Source: a virus
Virus record (IMG/VR): IMGVR_UViG_3300033993_000734
Location: 1 to 24,652 of that record
DNA: 24,652 nt
Strand: one strand, 5' to 3'
The translations under genes were made by a program, and so were the position numbers. Shown here piece after piece: positions 1 to 1,713 of the stretch (within the stretch, counting starts at the first letter, position 1; every line of letters starts with the position of its first letter). The notes beneath the pieces were generated by a model. It made no database searches, was not told where the DNA came from, and saw only the letters and a program-made list of their open reading frames with translations.

Positions 1-38
1 AATTCGACAATGCGAGACGATGACAGACCTTCGGTCAT
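1..38 (-). CDS. Start of a leftward gene, cut by window edge
   Basis: Reading the minus strand from 38, an ATG opens an uninterrupted frame to the edge, giving MTEGLSSSRIVE. The ATG overlaps the TGA of the upstream gene (ATGA), the same coupling used by other genes of this leftward operon, which is the main support for it. Only 12 residues are visible, so no function can be given. Confidence 0.5.
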   Translation of the reverse strand, partial: MTEGLSSSRIVE

Positions 39-292
39 TTTGTGTACCTCTTCATCATCCGGATAGGTGAATCGTTGTTACTAGTAATGCTATTGAATGT
101 AAACTTTACACCCAAATTCTCCAGTGCATTAATGAACAATGATGCGTCGCAATCCTCTTCAAGATATACCTTATCTCCCTTGATGTAACTATACCCGCTA
201 ACTTGATCGTCGATGTGTAGCATAGCTAACTCATCTCTCCCTACCTCAAGCCATCCATGTCCGGGGTCGCTGTGAAAATTGTATGTTGTCAT
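35..292 (-). CDS. Small conserved phage protein (SDPGHGWLEV type), 85 aa
   Basis: Small soluble protein without membrane segments. It carries two stretches that I recognise as conserved in a small protein family common in phages and plasmids of proteobacteria: SDPGHGWLEV near the N terminus and KVYLEEDCDASLF in the middle. The family's function is unknown to me. A longer reading frame starts with TTG at 313, but the ATG at 292 has a GGAAA Shine-Dalgarno sequence just upstream, so I use 292. The gene follows the 27-aa micro-ORF with one base between its stop and this start, and its own stop overlaps the next ATG. It is therefore an internal gene of a translationally coupled leftward operon. 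A near-copy of the GTTACTAGTAAC palindrome (77-88, one mismatch) lies inside the gene. Confidence 0.8.
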   Translation of the reverse strand: MTTYNFHSDPGHGWLEVGRDELAMLHIDDQVSGYSYIKGDKVYLEEDCDASLFINALENLGVKFTFNSITSNNDSPIRMMKRYTK

Positions 293-293
293 G

Positions 294-377
294 TTATTTC
301 CAAAGAATGTCAAAGAATGCTAGCAGTGCTACTAGTAACACTACACCTACTAATGTTGCCTCGAATTCATCTCTCAT
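294..377 (-). CDS. Single-TM micropeptide, 27 aa
   Basis: A tiny frame reads MRDEFEATLVGVVLLVALLAFFDILWK and then TAA. Residues 8-22 are almost entirely hydrophobic, flanked by an acidic N terminus and a C-terminal W-K, as expected for one membrane-spanning helix. Its ATG overlaps the TGA of the upstream gene (ATGA), and its TAA lies one base before the ATG of the downstream gene. The frame therefore exactly fills a gap in the operon that otherwise has no gene. It has no own Shine-Dalgarno sequence and would depend on coupled translation. The role could be a small membrane-acting early protein; that is inference. The exact fit of start and stop to both neighbours and the clean hydrophobic profile support a real gene. 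It is too short for homology to be judged by eye. Confidence 0.65.
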   Translation of the reverse strand: MRDEFEATLVGVVLLVALLAFFDILWK

Positions 378-610
378 ACCGTTGCTCCCAATGCACGTAA
401 TCGTGATTTTGTGGTAACTGTAGGCCATTTGGCTAACGTATTATTGTTAACCATTACAAAGCCTGTCCTACTGTTAACGTCTGCAATATGATTACCCCAT
501 AGATACACTGCTACGTTAACGTCGTCAATAGGTTTTACTGATGTGTTGTCATTAGACCATGTAAGCCTATTGTTAACAGCATTACACATAGCTTTTTCAA
601 TTTTACGCAT
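374..610 (-). CDS. Small conserved phage protein, 78 aa
   Basis: Soluble protein of 78 residues. It starts MRKIEKAM, and its mid part NVAVYLWGNHIADV followed by a C-terminal TTKSRLRALG resembles a short family of unknown function seen in many phage genomes. I recognise the pattern only and give no function. The start is an ATG at 610 with an AAGGA Shine-Dalgarno sequence 7 bases upstream. The stop overlaps the ATG of the 27-aa membrane micropeptide, so the two are probably translated together. Upstream, between this gene and the 170-aa gene, lie the perfect GTTACTAGTAAC palindrome (625-636) and a GC-rich hairpin (636-656), both in the leader of this gene. Confidence 0.75.
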   Translation of the reverse strand: MRKIEKAMCNAVNNRLTWSNDNTSVKPIDDVNVAVYLWGNHIADVNSRTGFVMVNNNTLAKWPTVTTKSRLRALGATV

Positions 611-662: not shown

Positions 663-1175
663 TTACTGTGCGTTCTTAGCTTCGTACACTGAGTCAGCTA
701 GCAAGGCAATCTTACCCCACAATTCTTGCAACTCTTCCTTGCTGAATGCATCTCGTGTCTCGCTGTCATACTTCTTTTGTGCCGCCTCGATGAATCCAAG
801 CATACGCTCAAAGTCACTCTTAGCCTCTTGCAACTCGCTTTTACCCTTGGGCATTGGGAATCCATCTTCCATCACTACACTACCTGAGTCGTCACGTTGC
901 CACACATCAACGTTATTAGTAACGGCCTTGCCTACTACGGATTTTGCTGAGCGTAGACTATTTTTCTCTTCCTTGGATAATTCCTTAATGTTGTTGAGAT
1001 CATCAACCAATGTTTTGTGTGCTTTATCCAACTCTTCTACATTTGAGGGCTGACCACCTATGTAGCATGTAGCTCTCACATAGTTAGCCCACACTCCCGC
1101 CCCTGCTTCCCTTGAAATGTCCTTACCTTCTTTTGCTTGGGTAAGGGCAACTCGCAGATTATTTTCGTATGACAT
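663..1175 (-). CDS. First gene of the leftward operon, unknown function, 170 aa
   Basis: Soluble, charged, mostly helical protein. Its likely coiled-coil stretches are around residues 45-75 (rich in E, K, L, D) and 110-165. It has no membrane segment or signal peptide and no motif that I recognise. The start ATG at 1175 has a good AAAGGA Shine-Dalgarno sequence. It is the first gene downstream of the control region, about 230 bases from the nearest leftward promoter-like repeat, so it is probably an early gene made in quantity. A host-takeover or DNA-binding accessory role would suit that position but nothing in the sequence proves it. A long frame on the opposite strand (619-1053) is a shadow of this gene. 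Confidence 0.8.
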   Translation of the reverse strand: MSYENNLRVALTQAKEGKDISREAGAGVWANYVRATCYIGGQPSNVEELDKAHKTLVDDLNNIKELSKEEKNSLRSAKSVVGKAVTNNVDVWQRDDSGSVVMEDGFPMPKGKSELQEAKSDFERMLGFIEAAQKKYDSETRDAFSKEELQELWGKIALLADSVYEAKNAQ

Positions 1176-1298: not shown

Positions 1299-1413
1299 AC
1301 CTGATACTCTCCCAAGTATCTTGCACCTAGCGAACTCGTATGGACACTGTGTTGCCATAGTCAAAGCTTTCGCATACGTTTTATTAGGGGTACGTATTCC
1401 CTTGCTTGCATCC

Positions 1414-1447
1414 ATTATAACTCTGGTTTCTTACACCAAACTTACAA
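1414..1447 (-). promoter_or_regulatory. Leftward promoter-like repeat, copy 1
   Basis: On the minus strand this reads TTGTAAG, then a second TGTAAG 11 bases after the first, then TATAAT 10 bases further on. The other three copies have 9 bases in that gap. The TATAAT is a perfect -10 box. There is no good -35 hexamer at 17 bases; instead the two TGTAAG half-sites, one helical turn apart, cover that position. It is the copy nearest to the leftward genes. Confidence 0.6.
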
Positions 1448-1484
1448 CTTCCAAAGAACTTTTGTTGTCTTTACACAACACCCA

Positions 1485-1506
1485 CAACATGCAAGATTAC
1501 ATGTTG
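1485..1506. repeat. Inverted repeat CAACATG/CATGTTG
   Basis: Seven-bp arms separated by 8 bases, located between promoter-like copies 1 and 2. The half-site CAACAT recurs in the perfect palindrome at 1637-1648, which suggests an operator for one protein, though this is inference from two sites only. Confidence 0.4.
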
Positions 1507-1521
1507 CTTCGTATGACCTTC

Positions 1522-1554
1522 ATTATACACACTAACCTTACACGAAACTTACAG
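1522..1554 (-). promoter_or_regulatory. Leftward promoter-like repeat, copy 2
   Basis: Minus strand CTGTAAG, TGTAAG 11 bases later, then 9 bases and a perfect TATAAT (1522-1527). It matches copy 3 at nearly every position in the first 18 bases, and also shares GTGTATAAT. Confidence 0.65.
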
Positions 1555-1606
1555 TGAGAATCATTGTCCTTACTAGTATCGTGCACCGTATCAGTGCATG
1601 GCCTCT

Positions 1607-1639
1607 ATTATACACAGAAACCTTACATGAAACTTACAA
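1607..1639 (-). promoter_or_regulatory. Leftward promoter-like repeat, copy 3
   Basis: Minus strand TTGTAAG, TGTAAG 11 bases later, 9 bases, then TATAAT (1607-1612). Its upstream end overlaps the 12-bp palindrome at 1637-1648, which would allow a bound protein to block or assist this copy. Confidence 0.65.
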
Positions 1640-1648
1640 CATATGTTG
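1637..1648. promoter_or_regulatory. Perfect palindrome CAACATATGTTG, possible operator
   Basis: Perfect 12-bp dyad overlapping by three bases the upstream edge of promoter-like copy 3. It shares the half-site CAACAT with the inverted repeat at 1485-1506. Confidence 0.4.
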
Positions 1649-1680
1649 CTAATTAACAACATCTGCTGTGCATGTGACCC

Positions 1681-1713
1681 ATTATCCATAGAATACTTAC
1701 ACGAACCTTACAA
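1681..1713 (-). promoter_or_regulatory. Leftward promoter-like repeat, copy 4
   Basis: Minus strand TTGTAAG, TGTAAG 11 bases later, 9 bases, then GATAAT, one base from the consensus -10. It is the outermost copy; the four copies are 108, 85 and 74 bases apart. Spacing within the unit is conserved while the 9-base filler differs. This indicates selection on the two half-sites and the TATAAT box rather than a recent duplication. Confidence 0.6.

Follow-up and report, generated by a model that had tools for sequence, protein, structure and literature searches.

Predicted tandem early promoters with paired TGTAAG boxes, and their probable activation by a host OmpR/PhoB-family response regulator, in a Zobellviridae-like podovirus

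Tandem early promoters are known in phages, for example A1-A3 of T7, and promoters with paired half-sites are known from lambda, where the CII half-sites (TTGC-N6-TTGC) recur with a 10-bp period on either side of a -35. In the Vibrio phage ICP2 (Zobellviridae), the rightward early genes are preceded by three tandem promoters, annotated as sigma-70 promoters of the classical TTGACA/TATAAT type. Bacterial promoters offer another arrangement: in the intergenic region before E. coli phoA, we read TGTCAT-AAAGT-TGTCAC-N10-TATAGT. The E. coli Pho box usually substitutes for the -35 and is bound by a PhoB dimer, one subunit on each repeat (PMC4971064). Host PhoBR control has been described for cyanophage genes (in S-PM2d, and pstS of P-SSM2), with PhoB binding seen by gel shift (PMC10976474); PhoB failed to bind one predicted Pho box of S-PM2d (PMC10976474), so a predicted box is not in itself proof.

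We analyzed a stretch of viral DNA at its full length (the window), a 24,652-nt IMG/VR virus fragment with a podovirus structural block. Judged by its genes, the window is a piece of a Zobellviridae-like podovirus; its terminase has its nearest relatives among isolates in the Methylophilales phages MEP401 and MEP402 (Zobellviridae; 56% identity), and its portal gene matches ICP2-type Vibrio phage DNA over a short stretch. Its leftward early operon opens with a gene for a 170-aa protein (663-1175, minus strand), which has 13 relatives (loci) in IMG/VR and whose product matches no Pfam or PHROGs family; the next leftward ORFs encode 78 aa (374-610, minus strand) and 92 aa (35-313, minus strand). 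In a near-complete relative of 41,951 nt (G001), the homologue of the 170-aa gene opens an early block with a CobT/CobS-like pair, primase, helicase, DNA polymerase, exonuclease, ThyX, ribonucleotide reductase, and an ECF-type sigma factor (we named the replication genes by comparing the translations with the MEP401/402 maps), and the structural genes are on the opposite strand. The early gene order of a more distant contig (L031) is similar to that of G001, which places the sequences described below before an early/replication operon. The CobT/CobS-like pair (L031:3512-6245; G001:12918-15652) also has relatives in ICP2 and in unrelated phages.

Upstream of the 170-aa gene, four units were delimited on the minus strand by pattern scans and by alignment with the units of related phages. 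Unit A, nearest the gene, spans 1414-1446 and reads TGTAAG-N5-TGTAAG-N10-TATAAT (half-sites 1446-1441 and 1435-1430; TATAAT 1419-1414; predicted start ~1407). Units B and C both read TGTAAG-N5-TGTAAG-N9-TATAAT: B is located at 1522-1553 (half-sites 1553-1548 and 1542-1537; TATAAT 1527-1522; predicted start ~1515) and C at 1607-1638 (half-sites 1638-1633 and 1627-1622; TATAAT 1612-1607; predicted start ~1600). Unit D, the farthest from the gene, spans 1681-1712 and reads TGTAAG-N5-TGTAAG-N9-GATAAT (half-sites 1712-1707 and 1701-1696; GATAAT 1686-1681; predicted start ~1674). Neighboring units are 74, 85, and 107 bp apart. The first-pass annotation of this DNA had described four minus-strand copies, each with TATAAT; all four are there, but TATAAT occurs in A-C only. 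It had also found no classic -35, and our sigma-70 scan agrees: no sigma-70-like -35/-10 pair lies over units A-D, and the -10 boxes have no TTGACA-type partner. The half-site pair, with at most one mismatch, occurs at only four places in the whole window, and these are units A-D; dinucleotide shuffles of the window (n = 400) gave no whole unit and seven lone pairs, and 10,000 shuffles of 1400-1740 gave no unit and at most one pair each.

The same unit is present in related phages, in two to five copies (L049 has just two), at the same place and on the same strand, 260-650 nt before the first early gene and always pointing into the early/replication operon. When the half-site pair was searched in the records of these relatives, nearly all matches fell within the promoter cluster; for example, all five matches in G001 are in the cluster, and none is elsewhere in its 41,951 nt. 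We aligned 39 units (38 distinct) from 11 related contigs, one of which (L047) is nearly the window itself. Both half-sites are present in every unit, and across the 38 distinct units the twelve half-site bases are invariant except for the first T of the second half-site, a count slightly biased by the scan, which allowed one mismatch. The spacer between the half-sites leans to KTTSR, and a GGA..CA start region downstream of the -10 is conserved. The -10 lies at N9 from the second half-site in 28 of the 38 distinct units and at N10 in the other 10; it is less constrained than the half-sites (position 3 is T in 22 of 38 units), so selection on the putative half-site binding seems to be stronger than on the -10 itself.

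Taken with the position of the array directly upstream of the early/replication genes, pointing into them and conserved in relatives, these data make it very likely that units A-D are a promoter array. The earlier proposal of a leftward array in which an activator box replaces the -35 thus holds, position, strand, and spacing all being kept in relatives. Its remark that four tandem copies for one operon is unusual was overstated, given the copy numbers in relatives and the three promoters annotated in ICP2.

We also looked for the arrangement farther afield. A de novo search for any 11-bp repeat with a -10 in the early regions of MEP401, MEP402, ICP2, and P12053L found none, so that among those tested the arrangement was found only in the array-bearing clade, and BLAST of one unit against phage records gave no meaningful match. 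The TGTAAG unit is also found between genes in contigs that differ in terminase or gene content (e.g., L006, L036, and L039), and one such contig (L008) has a tandem array; some of the single matches in these contigs may be due to chance.

The geometry of the units is that of PhoB/OmpR-type response-regulator activation. As in class II OmpR/PhoB promoters, direct half-sites lie 11 bp apart, and the second stands 9-11 bases before the -10, replacing the -35. Similar to the Pho-box promoter of E. coli phoA, each unit has an 11-bp direct repeat in the -35 place followed by a -10, but the phage half-site is TGTAAG rather than TGTCA, and the phage units mostly have N9 where phoA has N10. With the cyanophages they share promoters carrying boxes for a host OmpR/PhoB-family response regulator (predicted here); the cyanophage boxes serve individual phosphate-stress genes, whereas here a different box stands, in tandem, in all the promoters found before the early/replication operon. 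The ICP2 promoters occupy a matching genome position, but, unlike the units described here, have no TGTAAG pairs. Lambda CII promoters, which the first-pass annotation had taken as a model, also have two half-sites near the -35 position; the comparison does not carry over, since the units have TGTAAG, an 11-bp period, and no -35. A CII-type promoter, with TTGC-N6-TTGC around a -35, is accordingly not supported as a description of the units.

If the regulator is a host protein, the TGTAAG box is expected in bacteria as well. In 349 genomes of an order that we take to be Burkholderiales in GTDB (from the Rhodocyclales centre L074), the box had 112 matches (11 of them exact), vs. 29 for the reversed pattern. 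We looked at 20 of the sites, chosen mainly for exact matches or for several matches per genome, and four of them lie between a gene for a QseB/PmrA/TctD-like OmpR-family regulator and a divergent DUF485-ActP operon or its remains. We then took the best 30 loci for the QseB/PmrA/TctD-like regulator: the pair, with at most two mismatches, occurs within 300 bp upstream of 19 of the 30 regulator genes, always on the divergent strand, and a control pattern upstream of the same genes occurs at none. TAnnnT stands at exactly N10 in 16 of the 19 box-bearing loci, and at N9 in none. In a second family, probably Methylophilaceae (an assignment based on paired hexulose-6-phosphate synthase genes), the box had 174 matches vs. 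73 for the control; an OmpR-type regulator adjoins it in three of 20 loci examined, and N10 is the commonest -10 spacing (9 of 23 sites). By co-occurrence only, then, TGTAAG appears to be a half-site used by OmpR/PhoB-family regulators. The Burkholderiales promoters beside DUF485-ActP resemble the phage units in having TGTAAG-N5-TGTAAG, in the same order, followed by a -10; they differ in that the host promoters have a weaker -10 at N10, while the phages have near-consensus boxes and near-consensus -10s in two to five stacked copies, mostly at N9.

TGTAAG-N5-TGTAAG-N10-TAnnnT stands beside a QseB/PmrA/TctD-like regulator gene in L117, L119, L120, and L126-L133, and in the first three of these the box faces DUF485-ActP genes; the box-bearing loci are predicted to form an acetate or carboxylate transport regulon of Burkholderiales. 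At five further loci (L107, L108, L109, L122, and L124), the box lies beside an apparent second regulator-kinase pair (read in L107) and a gene resembling those for sugar-binding proteins. We found no description of a TGTAAG-N5-TGTAAG-N10 box in a limited search of open-access papers. When the full unit, TATAAT included, was sought in 84,980 species genomes, it turned up in 20 stretches with one match each, mostly from low-GC Firmicutes, and pointed to no clear host; since host sites have weaker -10 boxes, this pattern was too strict. Comparison of 20 kb of the window with 399 Burkholderiales genomes, for spacers and proviruses, gave short matches only, the best being 32 bp long and outside any repeat array. 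The link of the phage host to Burkholderiales is drawn from the enrichment of the box and from the Methylophilales phages being nearest by terminase.

We consider it probable that a host OmpR/PhoB-family response regulator activates the units. The four tandem sigma-70-type early promoters, each with a good -10 and an 11-bp direct repeat in the place of the missing -35, would fire leftward into the early/replication operon, and the TGTAAG pair is most likely the binding site for two subunits of an OmpR/PhoB-family regulator of the host, from the QseB/PmrA/TctD branch (the branch has many paralogues, and the regulator is specified to branch only). The host of the phage would then belong to the regulator-bearing group, its own regulator would bind the phage boxes, and the bound regulator would, in the manner of PhoB, recruit RNA polymerase by way of sigma region 4, so that the early programme would depend on the level or phosphorylation of the regulator. 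The OmpR-type DNA-binding domain (Trans_reg_C) was found in none of 15 phage records, while control genomes gave matches as expected. Counting against a host regulator is the N9 spacing of 28 of the 38 phage units, one base closer than the N10 of the host sites.

Other proteins could in principle read the same boxes. An activator of a new family, encoded by the phage and either made early or carried in the virion, would make these promoters comparable to the middle promoters that depend on MotA in T4; several early proteins, including the conserved 170-aa product of the first gene, belong to no known family, and the ECF-type sigma factor indicates that transcription factors made by the phages are in play. 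We nevertheless think such an activator unlikely: apart from the array, no units were found ahead of the first early genes, which means that the operon could not be started by an activator that it encodes itself, and an identical box with near-identical spacing stands beside host response-regulator genes. Contigs whose terminases are unrelated have the unit too, which would be expected of a shared host factor. That the ECF-type sigma factor itself (G001:28943-29467, or L085:8943-9467; also in G002, G003, G009, G010, and G020) reads the units is very improbable. Among the records searched it is found only in relatives that bear the array, and not in MEP401, MEP402, or ICP2, but the gene lies at the distal end of the very early block that it would have to start, a poor position for that role, and the -10 of the units is the plain sigma-70 TATAAT; late genes may be its likelier target.

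The TGTAAG pairs might instead be operators, or serve a dual role, with a host or phage regulator bound over the -35 shutting the early promoters off. The sites do cover the -35 position, which would suit a repressor as well, but there is no -35 underneath to repress, and the pairs keep the fixed distance from the -10 seen in activated promoters; we regard repression as improbable. Hardly any weight can be given to the alternative, raised in the first-pass annotation, that the repeats are iterons for a replication initiator. These direct repeats do adjoin a very AT-rich stretch of alternating TA (1740-2010), which separates the early promoters from the rightward (late/structural) genes, resembles stretches in several relatives, and is a possible origin or melting region. 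However, in every unit the -10 keeps a fixed distance from the repeats and is followed by a conserved start region, all in one orientation toward the early genes, and both the distances between units (74-107 bp) and the copy number are irregular for iterons. Activation by a host response regulator therefore remains the reading that we prefer.

Downstream of the array, a conserved, covarying structured RNA lies at the 5' end of the leader (1326-1405, minus strand), identified from alignments as an H-type pseudoknot (GGG/CCC and ATACGT/ACGTAT) together with a two-segment hairpin (GCGAA/TTCGC and TATGG/CCATA). It starts only a few bases downstream of where transcription from unit A is predicted to begin, and this position independently supports that start. 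Across seven sequences, 96.2% of the cells are paired, with changes on both sides at 9 pairs (17 cells); none of 500 shuffles scored as high, and sliding the partners destroyed the signal. The RNA is conserved in most relatives (L048 does not share it), and L053 keeps the pseudoknot with wholly different sequence (ACAGC/GCTGT and GCAACAT/ATGTTGC). It has no Rfam match.

Two other kinds of repeats were seen. Short inverted repeats of varied sequence follow several units, in 1455-1675 of the window and in the same segments of relatives (for example, TGCACTGATACGGTGCA and CAACATGTAATCTTGCATGTTG on the minus strand), and are candidate hairpins or operators. In addition, the 10-bp palindrome TTACTAGTAA occurs in the window at 78, 626, 1228, 10309, and 20180 (five copies vs. 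0.11 expected). It is the commonest 10-mer of G001 (16 copies, L084-L086), at about one per 0.4-1.7 kb over most of the early region, both within and between genes; there are 14 copies in L031, 9 in L056, and one in MEP402, and it is not listed for ICP2. One guess is an operator-like or stoperator-like element.

Early promoters of phages are as a rule strong and activator-independent, which lets infection begin regardless of the activity of the cell. It is possible, and we put it forward tentatively, that a clade of lytic podoviruses has instead wired its whole early programme to a host two-component regulator, with stacked promoters that have no -35 and fire only when the regulator is present or phosphorylated, so that infection reads the nutritional signalling of the host, and that the same box marks an undescribed Burkholderiales regulon of QseB/PmrA/TctD type, used by several unrelated phages. 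Host PhoB control of individual cyanophage genes is known; the claim here is stronger, as it concerns every promoter found before the early operon. If true, tying the early promoters to a host response regulator would allow the phage to sense its host; it would also create, for the host, one point of failure on which selection for resistance could act. For the bacteria, the TGTAAG-N5-TGTAAG-N10 box would predict targets of a group of Burkholderiales regulators.
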